A stretch of DNA of 10,578 nucleotides from Oscillospiraceae bacterium (GTDB taxonomy: Bacteria > Bacillota > Clostridia > Oscillospirales > Oscillospiraceae), in assembly GCA_031280325.1 (NCBI GenBank), contig JAITGW010000065.1:1-10578 (forward strand). Direction: 5' to 3'. How positions within the stretch are numbered: position 1 is the stretch's first letter; the number at the start of each line of letters is the position of its first letter. The notes below the pieces were generated by a model. That model was given only the letters and a program-made list of their open reading frames with translations, made no database searches and was not told where the DNA came from. The position numbers and the translations under genes are program-made. Of the stretch, positions 2,797-8,726 are shown piece after piece.

Positions 2797-3596
2797 GCGC
2801 TTCCTCCGCTCTTAAAGTGCGTATGCGCGGTTTTTACAACCGCCGCGCAGTCGATTTCCGCGGCGCCTGCGTCACCGAGCAACGCGAGAAACTCAATGTT
2901 TCCATCGCCGCCGCGAACAGGCGAGTGCGTAACCGCCGTGATCTCAAATCCCGCGGCGCGAGCGGAAACAAGCAACTCCTCCAATACGCGCTTGTGAGTT
3001 TTCGGGTCTTTGACGATCCCCTTTTTGCCGACATTTCCGCGCCCCGCCTCAAACTGCGGCTTGATAAGAGCAATCACTTGCGCACCCGGCGCGATAACCG
3101 TTCGCAGCGCCGGAAAAATCAGCGCCAGCGAGATGAACGACACGTCGATAACTGCAAGCTGCGGCGCTTCGGCAAGGATTTCGGGCTCGATCTCCCGCGC
3201 GTTCACTCCCTCAAGCGACACCACGCGCTCGTCACTCAGAAGCTGCGGCGCAAGCTGTCCGTGACCCACATCAACAGCGTATACACGCTTTGCGCCGCGC
3301 AGCAACAGACATTGCGTAAAGCCGCCTCTGCTCGCCCCGAGATCAAGGCATACAAGCCCCCGCGGCGATACCCCGAACACGTCCAGCGCGCGCTCAAGCT
3401 TTTTGCCGCCTCGCGAGACATAGTCTTCCGCCGCCCGCGGCGCAGCAAGAATCGCGTCTTCGCAGACAAGCTCGCTCGGCTTATCGGAAATCACCCCGTT
3501 TACGGAGACTCTTCCGGCAAGAATCGCGCCCTTAGCACGCTGGCGGCTCGGAAAAAGACCGCGCGCCGCAGCCAAAGCGTCAAGCCGAACCATCAT
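2793..3596 (-). CDS. tlyA: TlyA family rRNA (cytidine-2'-O)-methyltransferase
   Basis: TlyA-type enzymes methylate ribose 2'-OH groups of cytidines in rRNA using S-adenosylmethionine; some members were first described as hemolysins. The 267-residue protein has an N-terminal S4 RNA-binding domain (about 3-55, with RLDALAAARGLFPSRQRAKG). The linker YVSRGGKKLERAL follows (59-71). The FtsJ/RrmJ-like methyltransferase domain then shows SAM motif I LGASRGGFT (86-94), DVGHGQL (109-115), DVSFISL (151-157) and LIKPQFEAGR (177-186). The chosen ATG at 3596 gives an ATGA overlap with the dxs stop and has GAGGGAG about 8 nt upstream. A longer version with 17 more residues would begin inside dxs and would precede the conserved S4 start. 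Methyltransferase activity is inferred from family membership. Confidence 0.93.
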   Translation of the reverse strand: MMVRLDALAAARGLFPSRQRAKGAILAGRVSVNGVISDKPSELVCEDAILAAPRAAEDYVSRGGKKLERALDVFGVSPRGLVCLDLGASRGGFTQCLLLRGAKRVYAVDVGHGQLAPQLLSDERVVSLEGVNAREIEPEILAEAPQLAVIDVSFISLALIFPALRTVIAPGAQVIALIKPQFEAGRGNVGKKGIVKDPKTHKRVLEELLVSARAAGFEITAVTHSPVRGGDGNIEFLALLGDAGAAEIDCAAVVKTAHTHFKSGGSA

Positions 3597-5434
3597 CTCA
3601 TAAGCTCCCTCGCGGCTGATACGATCCCCGCGGCGTCCAGCCCGCACATGCGCTTCAGTTCCGGAACAGCGCCGCAGGGCGGCGTCTCGCTTCCGACGTT
3701 CAAAAGCCGGAACTTCGCCGCGATGCCAAGCTGCGCGAGGCTCGCGGCAATCCGCTCTCCCACTCCGCCGCAGAGAATCGAATCCTCAACAACGACGCAC
3801 CGTCCCGTTTTCGCGGCGGAAGCGCCGATATGGGTAAAATCAATCGGACACACGCGCCCAAGCTTTATGACTTCCGCAAAAATGCCTTGCTCCGCAAGCA
3901 TTTCTGCCGCCTCAACGCAGTCGTTCACAAGAATGCCGTATGTCACAAGCGTAACGTCGCTTCCGCGGCGCAGCAGCAAAGACGCATCAGTGCCGCCGCG
4001 GACATAGCTCCCCTGCTCCCCCTTTGGATATCGTATGGCGACCGGAGAGTCAAAATCATTCACCGCAAGCGAGAGCATATCGCACAGCTCGGCATAGCTT
4101 GTCGGAGCGAACACCGTCATTCCCGGAATCCCTGAAAGATACGAAACGTCAAACACTCCCTGATGAGTCTCACCGTCCCCGGCGACAAGTCCCGCCCTGT
4201 CAAGCGCGAAAATCGCATGGACGCGCATAAGCGAAACGTCGTGTATGAGCATATCAAAGCCTCGCTGCAAAAACGTGGAATAAACCGCAAACACGGGAAG
4301 CATACCTCCCGCCGCAAGTCCCGCGCACATCGTAACCGCGTGCCCCTCCGCAATGCCGACGTCGAAAAACCGCTCCGGAAACAGAGTCTTGAAAGGCGCG
4401 AGACCGGTGCCGGAGGCCATCGCAGCTGTCACCGCGCAGAGCTCTCCGCTCCTCGCGCCAAGCTCGCACATCACCGCGCCAAACGTCCGAGAAAAGGATT
4501 CTCCTCCGCTTTCCGTCTCACCTGTCTCCGGGTCATATAAGCCAACGCCGTGGAACGTCTCCGGGCTGCGCTCCGCCGGAGTGAAGCCGCGCCCCTTTTG
4601 AGTGATGACGTGTACGAGCGCCGGGGAATTGAATGCCCGCGCAAGCTCAAGAGCGCGCGTCATTGACTTAATGTCGTGACCGTCGATCGGTCCGATATAT
4701 TCAAATCCCATCTCCTCAAACATACTGCATTGCAGCACCGCGCGCTTTATCGCCGCCTTGAGCCTGTGCGTAAACCTGTAAAGCAGCTTCCCTCCGGGAA
4801 TTTTTTCGGTGAAGCGGCGATACCTCTGCTTAAAGGTCAAGTACGATGGCTTTATTCTCTGCCGAGAGAGATATTTTGCAACACCTCCGACGTTTCGAGT
4901 GATAGACATGCCGTTGTCATTCAGCACTACGACCATCGCTTCGCCTGTGTCCCCGGCGTCGGACAATCCCTCATATGCAAGGCCGCCCGTCAACGCTCCG
5001 TCGCCAAGCAGCGCGACAACAGAGTGCGTATCGCCCCGCAGCGTCCGCGCCCGCGCTAGTCCCAAAGCTGCCGAAACAGAGTTTGACGCGTGCCCCGCGA
5101 CGAAAGCGTCATAGTGAGACTCCGCGGGCTTTGGAAAACCGGACAATCCTCCGAATTTGCGCAGGGTTGCGAATTTGTCCGTGCGCCCTGTGAGGATTTT
5201 ATGTATATAGCTCTGATGTCCGACGTCGAACAGCAGTCTATCCCTGTCAAAATCAAACGCGAGGTGCAGCGCCACAGTAAGCTCCACAACACCAAGATTG
5301 GACGCCAGGTGTCCGCCCGTCTTCGAGAGGTTTGTTATGAGAAATTCCCGTATTTCGGCGCACAATTCAGACAGCTCACGTCCGGAAAGTCCGCGCAGGT
5401 CGGCGGGTGTGTGAATATTTGAAAGCAGGTTCAA
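3593..5434 (-). CDS. dxs: 1-deoxy-D-xylulose-5-phosphate synthase
   Basis: Dxs condenses pyruvate and glyceraldehyde 3-phosphate with thiamine diphosphate (ThDP), the first and rate-setting step of the MEP isoprenoid pathway. The 613 residues are full length. Visible: GGHLASNLGVVELT from 40 with His42; DVGHQ with His73; the ThDP/Mg-binding GDGALTGG (144-151) and NDN (172-174); PETFHG with His295; the cofactor-activating glutamate in FDVGIAEGHAVT (Glu363); and the transketolase-like DRAGLVAGDGETHQG (412-426). The C-terminal domain is intact. The start is TTG at 5434, 1 nt after the oapA stop, with GGGAGG inside the end of oapA, so translation is probably coupled to oapA. It ends in an ATGA overlap with tlyA. 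Upstream ispA uses products of this pathway. Confidence 0.97.
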   Translation of the reverse strand: MNLLSNIHTPADLRGLSGRELSELCAEIREFLITNLSKTGGHLASNLGVVELTVALHLAFDFDRDRLLFDVGHQSYIHKILTGRTDKFATLRKFGGLSGFPKPAESHYDAFVAGHASNSVSAALGLARARTLRGDTHSVVALLGDGALTGGLAYEGLSDAGDTGEAMVVVLNDNGMSITRNVGGVAKYLSRQRIKPSYLTFKQRYRRFTEKIPGGKLLYRFTHRLKAAIKRAVLQCSMFEEMGFEYIGPIDGHDIKSMTRALELARAFNSPALVHVITQKGRGFTPAERSPETFHGVGLYDPETGETESGGESFSRTFGAVMCELGARSGELCAVTAAMASGTGLAPFKTLFPERFFDVGIAEGHAVTMCAGLAAGGMLPVFAVYSTFLQRGFDMLIHDVSLMRVHAIFALDRAGLVAGDGETHQGVFDVSYLSGIPGMTVFAPTSYAELCDMLSLAVNDFDSPVAIRYPKGEQGSYVRGGTDASLLLRRGSDVTLVTYGILVNDCVEAAEMLAEQGIFAEVIKLGRVCPIDFTHIGASAAKTGRCVVVEDSILCGGVGERIAASLAQLGIAAKFRLLNVGSETPPCGAVPELKRMCGLDAAGIVSAARELMR

Positions 5435-5435
5435 G

Positions 5436-5960
5436 CTATTTCATCCTCCCGCGGAAAAAACTGACTACCCTGCCGACGCCGTATATTATCTCCCCCGATT
5501 TTGTCATAGCAAGGCTTTTGCCGACGGCTTTCCCGCCGACCGTGAGCGCCGTCACAGCGCCGGCAATCAACAGCGACGCTGTCAGCTCTCCTATATTGAA
5601 ATCTCCGTGGATGCGCGCCACGAGCAGAGCCGAGGTCGAACCTGAAATAATTCCTGCTATGTCGCCGACCACGTCGTTGCAAACGCTGGAGACCTTGTTC
5701 GCGCTGCGGATGAGGGTAATCGCCTCGCGCGCGCCGCGCCGCTTGTGCGCCGCCATCGCGTGGAACGGCGCTTCCCGCGCCGCAGTCACAGCGACGCCGA
5801 CAATATCGAAAACCACGCCGAGCAGTATAAAAAACAACAGTGCCAGCATCGCCGAAATATATCCCGCGCCGTCAAGCGCGGCGGAGGCCAAAAAAGTGAA
5901 CATGACCGATGCCGCAATGGCGCTGAGTATAAGCTTAACTATCCAAGAATGCCTGCCCAA
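5436..5960 (-). CDS. oapA: OapA-type OLE RNA-associated membrane protein
   Basis: This 174-residue polytopic membrane protein has hydrophobic segments at about 8-29, 33-59, 99-115 and 124-146. Between the second and third lies a basic loop (AHKRRGAREA, 71-80) followed by CNDVVGD (94-100), which contains an Asp-x3-Asp pair (96, 100) at a membrane edge. It lies directly downstream of the large structured RNA and directly upstream of dxs. That is where OapA, the membrane partner of OLE RNA, is found in other Firmicutes; OapA proteins are small, four-helix, with conserved basic and DxxxD motifs. Such proteins are sometimes annotated as CorB-like Mg/Co transporters; I see no CBS domains, so a full CorB is unlikely. 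The start is TTG at 5960 with GGAG 10 nt upstream; a TGA lies just before it in frame, so no longer form is likely. Assignment rests on context and motifs. Confidence 0.8.
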   Translation of the reverse strand: MGRHSWIVKLILSAIAASVMFTFLASAALDGAGYISAMLALLFFILLGVVFDIVGVAVTAAREAPFHAMAAHKRRGAREAITLIRSANKVSSVCNDVVGDIAGIISGSTSALLVARIHGDFNIGELTASLLIAGAVTALTVGGKAVGKSLAMTKSGEIIYGVGRVVSFFRGRMK

Positions 5961-6004
5961 ACAAATTCATCTCCGTCAAAAACGCCTTCGTCGCAACAAT
6001 TGGG

Positions 6005-6757
6005 TTACATTAAGCTCGGCGGCTGCGCGCGGGGTAAATCTTACGGCTTAGGTCGGGCAGACTTTCTCCAATGGAAACCCTCCGTTGCCGCAAGGGCGGT
6101 TTCCCCTTCGTTCCAAGGTCGGCGCGTTGCCGCACGCCGGCGCTGTACGCCATATAGACGCGTGTTGCGCGGCGCATTCGCCGCCGCCCGATCGCCACTC
6201 AGTCCGTACCGTAGCCCCCCGCGCGCAAGTAAAATCCAACAGCCTAGTCGTTTTCCGAAACAATCCGTCCGTCTCTTTAGCCTCTTTTGCAGGCGGTATT
6301 TCAAGGGGCGATCGTCTCCAGCCGGCCGGCCGACCGGCGAAAGCCGTAGTTCCCCTATCCGCACCAGCCACTCAAGGCAGGCTACACCGCGCACAGCTTT
6401 GTTGCCAGCCGCCGGCGCAAAACGCCGCGGCGGACGCAAACCGCGTCACGGGTTCAACCCTGACACGTACAGGATACGCCCTCCGGAACCGAAGATAACG
6501 CTCCCGCACATAGACAGGTCTCCGCATAAGCAGGGTCGGGTTCTCCATGCCATTGGAAATCGCCCTACATATGCAAACCCTACAGATGAATATTCACCAG
6601 ATGTAGGATTTCCCCCCAGCACCCACCCCAAACTGGGCGTTCAAAGCAGGCACAAGGGACTTCACAGGTATGCCCTTCAAAGGATTTTTAGCCCCTTCCT
6701 AGGAGACGGCGAGACTGACTAGGATACTGCGCCGCCGCGGCGGATACTCCGCCGTTT
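6005..6757 (-). ncRNA. ole: OLE RNA (ornate, large, extremophilic), about 750 nt
   Basis: This stretch lacks a credible protein gene and is dense in RNA secondary structure. Its place, ispA then RNA then oapA then dxs on one strand, is the known OLE locus. OLE RNA binds OapA at the membrane and has been linked to cold, alcohol and magnesium-related stress responses. The 5' end is set by the promoter at 6764-6792; the 3' end is approximate. Helices read on the minus strand: a 5' GC hairpin (6738-6754); a 6+7 bp stem (6555-6560/6608-6613 and 6564-6570/6601-6607) enclosing a small AUAU-loop hairpin; GUCA-GGG hairpin (6445-6464); GC hairpin (6409-6433); GCAA-capped hairpins (6122-6135 and 6073-6104); and a possible closing helix 6731-6737 with 6017-6023. 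Several stems contain U-G pairs that would be A-C mismatches if the plus strand were transcribed. Length is slightly above the roughly 600 nt typical of OLE. No covariance search could be run here. Confidence 0.8.
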
Positions 6758-6763
6758 GAATGC

Positions 6764-6792
6764 ATTGTAACATAATATTTTGTGTTATTCAA
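6764..6792 (-). promoter_or_regulatory. Sigma-A type promoter of the OLE RNA
   Basis: On the minus strand, -35 TTGAAT (6792-6787) is followed by exactly 17 nt and -10 TACAAT (6769-6764). The extended-10 dinucleotide TG stands one base before the -10. The expected transcription start is an A around 6757, just before the 5' GC hairpin of the RNA. This gives OLE, oapA and the dxs block their own promoter, separate from the nusB-ispA operon. It is the best promoter in the window. Confidence 0.8.
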
Positions 6793-6859: not shown

Positions 6860-6897
6860 TATCGGGGAAACGGCATATATGCGCCGTTTCCCCGATA
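6860..6897. repeat. Perfect 15-bp inverted repeat with 8-nt loop
   Basis: Arms 6860-6874 and 6883-6897 are perfectly complementary, and the loop is ATATATGC on the plus strand. A further GAATAT/ATATTC pairing can extend the stem past a 3-nt bulge. It lies between the ispA 3' region and the OLE promoter. No U-run follows it on the minus strand, so it is not a classic intrinsic terminator. It could act as a 3'-end stabiliser of the ispA transcript, a protein-binding site, or an upstream part of the OLE promoter. Confidence 0.75.
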
Positions 6898-6920
6898 ATA
6901 TTCGCCTTTGTATTACGGCT

Positions 6921-6998
6921 GATATTATACCATAGCCGCAAAGCGGCGTCATGGTATATTCACTGAGCGGGAGGGAAGGGCCTTGCCCGGCTCCCGCG
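6921..6998. repeat. Tandem intergenic hairpin repeat, copy 1 (78 bp)
   Basis: This unit starts GATATTATACC and holds two hairpins. The first has arms 6926-6933/6951-6958 with an inner GCCGC-AAA-GCGGC. The second has arms 6966-6972/6991-6997 with an inner GGGC/GCCC. The first 28 nt are identical to copy 2. It resembles non-coding, REP- or MITE-like elements scattered between genes in bacterial genomes. No transposase or coding sequence is present. Confidence 0.8.
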
Positions 6999-7076
6999 GA
7001 TATTATACCATAGCCGCAAAGCGGCGAAATGGTATAGGCATTGAGTGCGCGGGAGGGCTTTGCCCGACCCTCACGG
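6999..7076. repeat. Tandem intergenic hairpin repeat, copy 2 (78 bp)
   Basis: This is the second unit at an exact 78-bp period, starting again GATATTATACC. Its first hairpin (TATACCAT/ATGGTATA arms around GCCGC-AAA-GCGGC) is kept apart from two loop-side bases. The second hairpin is diverged (GAGGG/CCCTC or GGGC/GCCC arms). A partial third start, GTATTATAC, follows at 7077-7085, next to the ispA stop. If transcribed from ispA, the pair forms four consecutive hairpins in the 3' UTR, which might stabilise or weakly terminate the message. Confidence 0.8.
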
Positions 7077-7086
7077 GTATTATACT

Positions 7087-7959
7087 CTATTTTTCCCGCG
7101 CCGCCATTTTTTCAGCCAGCGCACAGAGAAACTCTGTTTTCGCCGGAGAAAATCCTCCCAGCGCCAGCACTGCTCTCGCCGTATATTCGTCAATCGCGCG
7201 GCGGCACTCTTCTTCTCCGTAAAGCGTATAGAACGTCGTTTTTCCGTTGCGTTCGTCCGATCCGACAGGCTTTCCGAGCGTTTTCTCGTCGCCAATCGCG
7301 TCGAGCACATCGTCGCGGATCTGAAACGCAATTCCAAAGCTCCGTGCGTAATCCTTCGCGGCGTCAATTTGAAACGCGGTTCCTCCCGCCGCATATACTC
7401 CCATACAACAGGCGGCTTCAATCAGCGCGCAGGTCTTTTGCTCATGCGTCAGCAACAGACGCGCCTCATCAATCGGCTCGCTCTCAGACTCCATATCAAG
7501 GCTCTGCCCAAGGCACATCCGGTATGCGGCGCGCGCCAGCTCCCCGCTGATTTTCACAACACGCTCCGGCGGCAAACGGGACTCCGCCGCGCGCAAAAAC
7601 GCCTCCGCCTGGAGGGCGTCGCCCGCCAAAAGCGCTCTCCACTCTCCAAACGCCGCGTGATTAGACGGCTTCCCGCGCCGCATGTCATCGTCATCCATGC
7701 AGGGCAAATCGTCATGAATAAGTGAATACGCATGTATAAGCTCCGCCGCGCACGCAGCGTCAAGCGCGGCTTCCATATCGCCTCCGGCCGCCTCGCAGAA
7801 TTTCAGCGTGAGAATCGGGCGCAGACGCTTCCCGCCGGCAAGCGCGCTGTAGCGCATGGCGCGGCGCAGCCCGTCTGACTCACTCTGCGCAAAATAAAGC
7901 TCCAGCCGAGCCTCTACCATAAGCCGCAGACGATCCAGTTCCTCCCAAAATGCGCTCAT
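7087..7959 (-). CDS. ispA: Polyprenyl (geranyl/farnesyl) diphosphate synthase
   Basis: This trans-type prenyltransferase adds isopentenyl diphosphate units to allylic diphosphates, giving C10-C20 isoprenoid precursors. The 290 residues match the short-chain class. Visible: GGKRLRP (42-48) for substrate phosphate binding; the first aspartate-rich motif DDLPCMDDDDMRRGKPSNH (83-101) with the two-residue insert typical of bacterial FPP synthases; GDAL (113-116); and the second aspartate-rich motif FQIRDDVLD (212-220), followed by GKP (229-231) and GKTTF (239-243). The protein is mostly alpha-helical and cytosolic. The ATG overlaps the xseB stop by 4 nt (ATGA). It ends the right-hand operon, and repeats begin immediately after its stop. 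Product chain length cannot be fixed from sequence alone. Confidence 0.94.
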   Translation of the reverse strand: MSAFWEELDRLRLMVEARLELYFAQSESDGLRRAMRYSALAGGKRLRPILTLKFCEAAGGDMEAALDAACAAELIHAYSLIHDDLPCMDDDDMRRGKPSNHAAFGEWRALLAGDALQAEAFLRAAESRLPPERVVKISGELARAAYRMCLGQSLDMESESEPIDEARLLLTHEQKTCALIEAACCMGVYAAGGTAFQIDAAKDYARSFGIAFQIRDDVLDAIGDEKTLGKPVGSDERNGKTTFYTLYGEEECRRAIDEYTARAVLALGGFSPAKTEFLCALAEKMAAREK

Positions 7960-8207: not shown

Positions 8208-8726
8208 CTACCGCCCAAAGTTTATTACTTCCCACTCGGAATATGCATCCCGCCGCCCAAGCGCCGCCTGATCGTCGCTGTATTTCGTTGTTTCGATGCG
8301 AAACACCGCCAGATTTCCCGGCGCGAACAGCTTTGGATTTTGGTCGTCGTCGCTCAAACCCTCGCCGTGAGCATACCAAAGCCATGCTCCGCCCTCGTCC
8401 GTGTCCGCGGCGAACGTCACGGAAATAACTGTTCCAAGCCCCGGATTATCCCTGTAAAGACGCTCCGCGATCTCTTGCGCCGCCGCAATATCGCGCTCGC
8501 TCAGCGCGCCGATAAAATCAGACAGCTCAATCTGCCGGACGGACGGCGTTTCCGTCGGGTTGTCCGTCGCCATCGCACTTGGGCCGGACGGCGAAATCAG
8601 CCCCGGCGCGGCCGGCGCTTCTCCTCCCGGTTCGTTCCCGGTCGCCGCGCCGCCGTTGCAGGCGCTCAGCAATACGGCTGCCGCAAGTAATACGGCAAGG
8701 CTCGCCGCCGCTTTCTTTACGCTCAT
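8208..8726 (-). CDS. Small lipoprotein of unknown function
   Basis: This 172-residue protein has a lipoprotein signal: KK at 4-5, a hydrophobic run to about 19, and lipobox LSAC with Cys23 as the likely lipidated residue. A low-complexity linker rich in Gly, Ala, Pro and Thr follows (24-62), suited to tethering on the outer face of the membrane. The C-terminal part (about 65-172) looks folded, with a helical stretch SDFIGALSERDIAAAQEIAE and a likely beta-rich end containing WLWYAHGEG and AVFRIETTKYSDDQAALG. I do not recognise a family. It lies 4 nt after xseA and 21 nt before xseB, inside an operon in which these two subunits are usually adjacent. Its start ATG has GAGG 9 nt upstream. It ends TAG directly followed by TGA. 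Confidence 0.85.
   Translation of the reverse strand: MSVKKAAASLAVLLAAAVLLSACNGGAATGNEPGGEAPAAPGLISPSGPSAMATDNPTETPSVRQIELSDFIGALSERDIAAAQEIAERLYRDNPGLGTVISVTFAADTDEGGAWLWYAHGEGLSDDDQNPKLFAPGNLAVFRIETTKYSDDQAALGRRDAYSEWEVINFGR

Follow-up and report, generated by a model that had tools for sequence, protein, structure and literature searches.

An OLE RNA gene with a hairpin in J5/6, and its partner gene oapA, in an Oscillospiraceae bacterium

The window analysed here, a stretch of 10,578 nt from an Oscillospiraceae bacterium (GCA_031280325.1, contig JAITGW010000065.1) to which all coordinates refer, carries a gene for OLE RNA (ole) followed by the gene for its partner, the small membrane protein OapA; all genes of the locus lie on the minus strand. 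Both names, given earlier by a reading of the sequence alone, were confirmed, as was the interval assigned to the pair (5436–6757), which covers oapA and the entire RNA. The locus itself is one further carrier of a known class, ordinary as a find and no first. Structurally, its OLE is a version that touches an open OLE question, that of the two kink-turns (k-turns) proposed for one region of the molecule: a hairpin in J5/6 stands where one strand of the first is placed, and the strands of the second are kept.

Identity and distribution of the RNA and its partner

Scanning the window with cmscan gave a single match at or above the gathering score, to the Rfam OLE model RF01071; it lies on the minus strand, spans the whole model (1–616 of 616) and scores 361.2 bits against a cut-off of 50 (E 2.8e-103), and the same model had no match in 14 control genomes. 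The structured stretch of about 750 nt described in the sequence-only reading measures 749 nt, with a minimum free energy of −340.3 kcal/mol (z −4.8; 0 of 20 shuffles equally low). Its reported lack of coding stands in part: stops number 7, 11 and 4 in the three sense frames, but this GC-rich DNA has open stretches as long as 134 codons (open reading frames, ORFs, 6041–6439 and 6048–6371, minus strand). The P7, P8 and P12 regions are expanded in the Rfam alignment, and OLE matches range from 660 to 833 nt across the window's genus, some of whose isolates may come from termite guts.

The protein encoded 42 nt downstream of ole has the 174 residues, basic loop (AHKRRGAREA) and aspartate pair read from the sequence before; the pair, D96-VVG-D100 (codons 5675–5673 and 5663–5661), forms a DxxxD motif, both aspartates of which are unchanged in all 41 relatives aligned. 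CNNM is the sole domain matched, giving a CNNM-like membrane fold without CBS or CorC domains, and a scan of NCBIfam returned no family. With no curated OapA profile to draw on, we built one from ten OapA candidates. Among the 40 nearest genomes (the window's own included), of which 22 carry OLE and 18 do not, it matched exactly the OLE-bearing ones (22/22 and 0/18); by tblastn, oapA lies downstream of OLE in 21 of 23 fetched loci, the misses being L022, at a contig end, and L011. The identity of ole and oapA rests on this strict co-occurrence together with the full-length covariance score, and the combination of a missing covariance match and a poor OapA profile score did not occur. A GC-rich coding or regulatory region next to an unrelated small membrane protein would suit the open sense stretches, the CNNM score below the Pfam cut-off and the empty NCBIfam scan, but the covariance score, the clean controls and the co-occurrence refute this reading, to which we give practically no credence.

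Two genomes show other arrangements of these genes. G029 has two OapA genes, one beside the sole OLE found (L016, G029:C41) and one beside dxs at a contig end (L146, G029:C94). G025 has its detected OLE and its OapA gene on separate contigs (L144, G025:C53 and L145, G025:C30), and a long ORF, mfd-like by eye, lies downstream of the OLE.

Set beside the OapA family, the window's protein is alike in its CNNM-like fold, its DxxxD motif and its place adjoining ole; it has a short N-terminus, and nothing decisive differs. From the Mg2+ transporters MpfA, CorC and CorB it differs in having no CBS pair or CorC_HlyC part, in the DxxxD motif and, in a structure model that resembles MtCorB, in a predicted additional N-terminal helix (model helix 5–31). 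Compared by sequence with the chains of the PDB, a 41-sequence OapA profile gave no match at E 1.

The OLE RNAs of Halalkalibacterium halodurans and Clostridium acetobutylicum resemble that of the window in matching the whole Rfam model, in the k-turn 1b strands, the L9.3 palindrome and P13, in the adjoining oapA and in a promoter-like site of their own in front. They differ in length (about 600 nt against 749 nt) and in having a GUUAAGG strand where the window's OLE has the J5/6 hairpin; OapC, part of those systems, was not found in the window's genus. OapC is likewise absent or not found with OLE variants 1 (TANB77) and 2 (RF39). According to PMC11332333, P7/P8 is shortened or lacking in these variants, and P9 also in variant 1, whereas the window's OLE has P7 and P8 expanded and keeps OapB and the P13 region.

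The L9.3 palindrome, GGCC in the window, stands at the place of the kissing-loop contact of the OLE dimer (PMC12286853). Over 167 parsed loci, in a script count that some genomes enter twice or more and in which a neighbouring hairpin can be picked (as for L019), L9.3 reads GGCC in 142, GUAC in 7, AGCU in 2 and another palindrome in 1, with none in 15. The GUAC form occurs in the window's genus (G001, G003, G006, G007 and G009) and keeps the self-complementarity; as a predicted loop it adds to the published switches GAUC and AGCU (PMC12286853).

OLE was found in 87 of 300 sampled Oscillospiraceae genomes and in 32 of their 106 genera, among them Papillibacter cinnamivorans (G058) and Sporobacter termitidis (G243), whose family at NCBI is Oscillospiraceae. 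As suggested earlier, the locus does place OLE in a clostridial lineage rich in GC, but such a placement is not new, given these genomes and the 2,822 hits published across Bacillota (Fernando and Breaker 2024, PMC11332333). Our literature search returned no paper joining OLE RNA with Oscillospir- or Ruminococc-, and the main text of PMC11332333 is silent on Oscillospir-, Clostridia, termite, J5-6, insertion and Papillibacter; the J5/6 hairpin may be drawn in its figures or supplements. Two candidates were rejected in this survey: a second OLE gene in G008, where both matches are partial, at contig ends and more likely one split gene, and mini-OLEs in G227 or G208, where both matches are at contig ends.

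The CorC_HlyC domain, the mark of MpfA Mg2+ exporters, scored over its cut-off in none of the 22 OLE-bearing nearest genomes (one weak match, in G026) and in 13 of the 18 without OLE. The family sample gave 21/87 against 197/213 (Fisher p ~3e-32, kinship ignored). This pattern repeats, here among genera of one family, the published anticorrelation of OLE and MpfA (Fernando and Breaker 2024, PMC11332333). At 13 fetched OLE-less loci, the tblastn ends place ispA and dxs about 20–180 nt apart in five and several hundred nt apart in two; the remaining six have no ispA within the stretch.

The J5/6 hairpin and the two proposed k-turns

Relative to the Rfam alignment, the window's OLE has an insertion of 36 nt between P5 and P6, which forms an extra hairpin in the place of the GUUAAGG strand. 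This strand belongs to k-turn 1a, proposed to form from J4a/5 with J5/6 (PMC9723947); k-turn 1b would instead pair J4a/5 with J6/7 (PMC12286853), and both, although mutually exclusive, are still live for the OapC/bS21 region of OLE (PMC12054373). In a first set of OLEs the hairpin was present in 11 of 11 from the same family, whereas J5/6 measured 13–16 nt in nine of ten from other families; the tenth (G031) has a J5/6 of 27 nt that contains a small hairpin. Across the family sample 84 of 87 OLEs were classed, 59 as hairpin type and 25 as short type with GGGUUAAGG or a close form; G208 and G257 (contig ends) and G296 (misparsed) are excluded, and G201 was classed by eye. The 1a strand, absent from the window's OLE and missing from 59 of the 84, marks a subtype, and OLE identity was judged without it. 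In one same-genus OLE (L020, G001:C40) J5/6 is expanded to 194 nt, for a total of 833 nt.

The frame of the hairpin is conserved, with A at the 5′ edge in 60 of 60 distinct sequences and UGC at a fixed place at the 3′ edge in 54. Over 57 distinct relatives (G001, G006 and G009, with the frame out of register, are omitted), 199 of the 228 cells for its four outer pairs hold a standard pair; the count is at most 134 when the strands are slid by 1–3, and shuffling the partners gives a mean of 166 and never reaches the observed count in 1000 rounds. In a tree built from OLE cores with J5/6 removed, the hairpin requires one change with corrected labels and four with automatic labels, the single change resting on three labels set by hand (G264 and G031 to short, G296 left out). 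This tree has 73 rows: G208, G227, G257 and G301 were not entered, G201 is out since its J5/6 was unparsed, and 23 family loci fell out where the script's anchors were absent. Apparently the hairpin has a single origin.

In the k-turn core, C85 and G89 show no variation among 85 family OLEs, and the GRAG motif of J6/7 was found by script in 84 of these, the miss (G009) having GGAGACC in the alignment. Position 84 is U in 24 of 24 GUUAAG-bearing OLEs and U in 25, A in 16, C in 14 and G in 6 of the others; the search pattern behind this table included A90 and neither C85 nor G89, and the group lacking GUUAAG may hold a short-type row. On the tree, counting rows from other families as well, position 84 changes 12 times in 52 hairpin rows versus once in 21 short rows. 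We read this sequence pattern as U84 being held by the J5/6 strand in the short type, matching the prediction of k-turn 1a; in the window's type the hold on U84 would be gone and the core residues needed by k-turn 1b kept. An argument from the C that the window has at this place, as a sign of lost OapC binding, was dropped because U84C retains robust OapC binding, U84A weakening it and C85A abolishing it (PMC9723947).

The hairpin may alternatively be tolerated length variation of no relevance to OapC or the k-turn, with OLE and OapA standing as described. Such a reading, which we regard as possible though doubtful, fits the expansions of P7, P8 and P12 and the length range within the genus, the single origin of the hairpin and the presence of OapC in some hairpin-type genomes. 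It sits less well with the position of the hairpin, where the 1a strand is proposed, with the conserved A…UGC frame and with the release of U84 that accompanies the loss of GUUAAG.

OapB, OapC and YlxQ

A KOW-type ORF between map and infA in G000 encodes OapB (E 2.2e-5 against PDB 7k9b, ‘OLE-associated protein B’), and a similar KOW-type ORF was recognised by eye in all but one of the 12 same-genus genomes, the exception (G006) being without an infA match. OapC, reported as a binder of the OLE k-turn (PMC9723947), gave a different result: a profile of nine YbxF/OapC-like proteins from relatives had no match in six same-genus genomes (G000, G001, G003, G005, G009 and G011), and G003 has no OapC-like ORF between rpoC and rpsL. 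The window's own assembly (1.1 Mb, 219 contigs, 64% complete) lacks rpsL.

Across the family, the OapC profile scores strongly in 23 of the 25 genomes with a short-type OLE, in 22 of the 59 with the hairpin type and in 93 of the 213 that lack OLE. By Fisher tests that ignore kinship, OapC is kept more often in the short than in the hairpin type (p 2.6e-6), and its frequency does not differ between hairpin-type and OLE-less genomes (p 0.46). A clean statistical link between the hairpin and OapC loss was nevertheless rejected, as the test ignores kinship and the tree gives one independent pair; with a single origin of the hairpin, we put the link forward as a hypothesis. Outside the family, G033 is the single OLE-bearing relative with no OapC match beside rpsL, and its J5/6 is short; OapC loss is thus possible without the hairpin.

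The place of OapC in the window's genus could have been taken by YlxQ, a k-turn binder too according to the title of Baird et al. 2012, acting on the same bend. The L7Ae-family matches of G006, G010 and G011 are of ylxQ type by neighbourhood (nusA-ylxR-ylxQ-infB), and the invariance of C85 and G89 also speaks for it; G007 and G009 have further L7Ae matches. However, weak L7Ae matches are found in OLE-less genomes also, YlxQ as far as seen is not confined to OLE carriers, and G000, G001, G003, G004 and G008 have no L7Ae match; we consider the replacement improbable.

Organisation of the locus and a proposed particle

Along the minus strand, nusB and xseA are followed by a lipoprotein-like ORF, then ispA, ole, oapA, dxs, tlyA, nadK and an ORF for the C-terminal part of ArgR; the flanking genes and the promoter named in the sequence-only reading were recovered (Table 1). 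A TTGAAT-16-TATAAT site is the best-scoring one upstream of OLE in six genomes of the window's genus (G003, G004, G007, G008, G010 and G011) and in G012 and G034; for G009 and G001, also of this genus, the top site upstream of OLE reaches just 8/12 and 6/12.

Table 1. Features of the ole–oapA locus in the window
Feature	Position	Strand	Evidence
ispA-type farnesyl diphosphate synthase gene, upstream neighbour	7087..7959	minus	NF045485, 287 bits
Promoter-like site TTGAAT-17-TACAAT before ole	6764..6792	minus	consensus scan, 9/12 matches
OLE RNA gene, full-length type, 749 nt	6003..6751	minus	RF01071, 361.2 bits, whole model
J4a/5 k-turn strand: C6668 (place of U84), C6667 (C85), bulge 6666-6664 UGU, G6663 A6662	6662..6668	minus	21-OLE alignment, family table
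Extra hairpin in J5/6 (J5/6 = 6566..6615), framed by A6611 and U6575-G-C	6575..6611	minus	Rfam insertion, fold z −4.3, covariation
J6/7 strand GGAGA, k-turn 1b partner	6519..6523	minus	motif in 84/85 family OLEs
L9.3 palindrome GGCC, place of OLE dimer kissing loop	6328..6331	minus	script; contact from PMC12286853
P13 region, place of OapB site	6073..6106	minus	Rfam alignment; site per PMC9723947
oapA, 174 aa, TTG start at 5960	5436..5960	minus	CNNM 24.8 bits, below Pfam cut-off 28.4
dxs, downstream neighbour	3593..5434	minus	TIGR00204, 644 bits

The interval between ispA and ole contains two direct repeats of 62 nt (6918–6979 and 6996–7057, 84% alike), each containing a CGCCGCTTTGCGGC stem and ATGGTATAATAT; the GCCGC..GCGGC stem is absent from the 400 nt upstream of OLE at the other 22 OLE loci. 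A perfect 15-nt inverted repeat, TATCGGGGAAACGGC, with a loop of 8 nt (6860–6897), may mark the end of the ispA transcript. The lipoprotein-like ORF between xseA and ispA (8208–8726, 172 aa) is matched by no Pfam family at E 0.1 and by none over the cut-off in NCBIfam.

As a whole, the locus is best explained, and in our view rather probably, as follows. The ole gene would be transcribed from its own predicted promoter, and the RNA would dimerise through the L4 contact and the P9.3 GGCC loop and dock on OapA in the membrane. This particle would take on the stress and Mg2+-homeostasis work that falls to MpfA-type CNNM-CBS-CorC proteins in OLE-less relatives; its dimeric state, membrane location and stress role are carried over from published work on other species. 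In the window's genus the particle would include OapB and apparently not OapC. Since the hairpin has displaced the 1a strand from J5/6, bending at the base of P5 would most likely come from J4a/5 with J6/7, that is, k-turn 1b, and RNA structure would do at P5 what OapC helps to do elsewhere, which for the window's genus we offer as a hypothesis.

Several points weigh against this explanation. The OLE transcript is a prediction from the DNA, and a Foldseek search with the OapA model returned nothing at E ≤0.001, the best match being MtCorB at 0.024. CorC_HlyC is present as well in 21 of the OLE-bearing family genomes, and the 22 hairpin-type genomes with OapC possess the protein that the hairpin is proposed to make unnecessary. 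The missing rpsL means that OapC may lie on a missing contig of the window's own assembly. In an overlapping named set (43 of 50 genomes) OapC is found in 8 of 12 short-type and 14 of 31 hairpin-type genomes, a weak trend (p 0.31), and a single origin of the hairpin leaves one independent comparison between hairpin and OapC loss.

We tentatively suggest, as a less probable extension, that in a large Oscillospiraceae clade the hairpin replaced the 1a strand before much of the clade lost OapC, making dispensable a protein that is essential in H. halodurans, with k-turn 1b as the working form. If this is true, OLE RNA would have rebuilt its own core in such a way that a protein partner became dispensable. 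Hairpin-type OLEs, without the 1a strand and with the 1b strands, are natural RNAs able to discriminate k-turn 1a from 1b and can decide between them, and Oscillospiraceae offers genera with OLE and without OapC, and genera without OLE and with MpfA, for testing the role of OapC and the exchange between OLE and MpfA.
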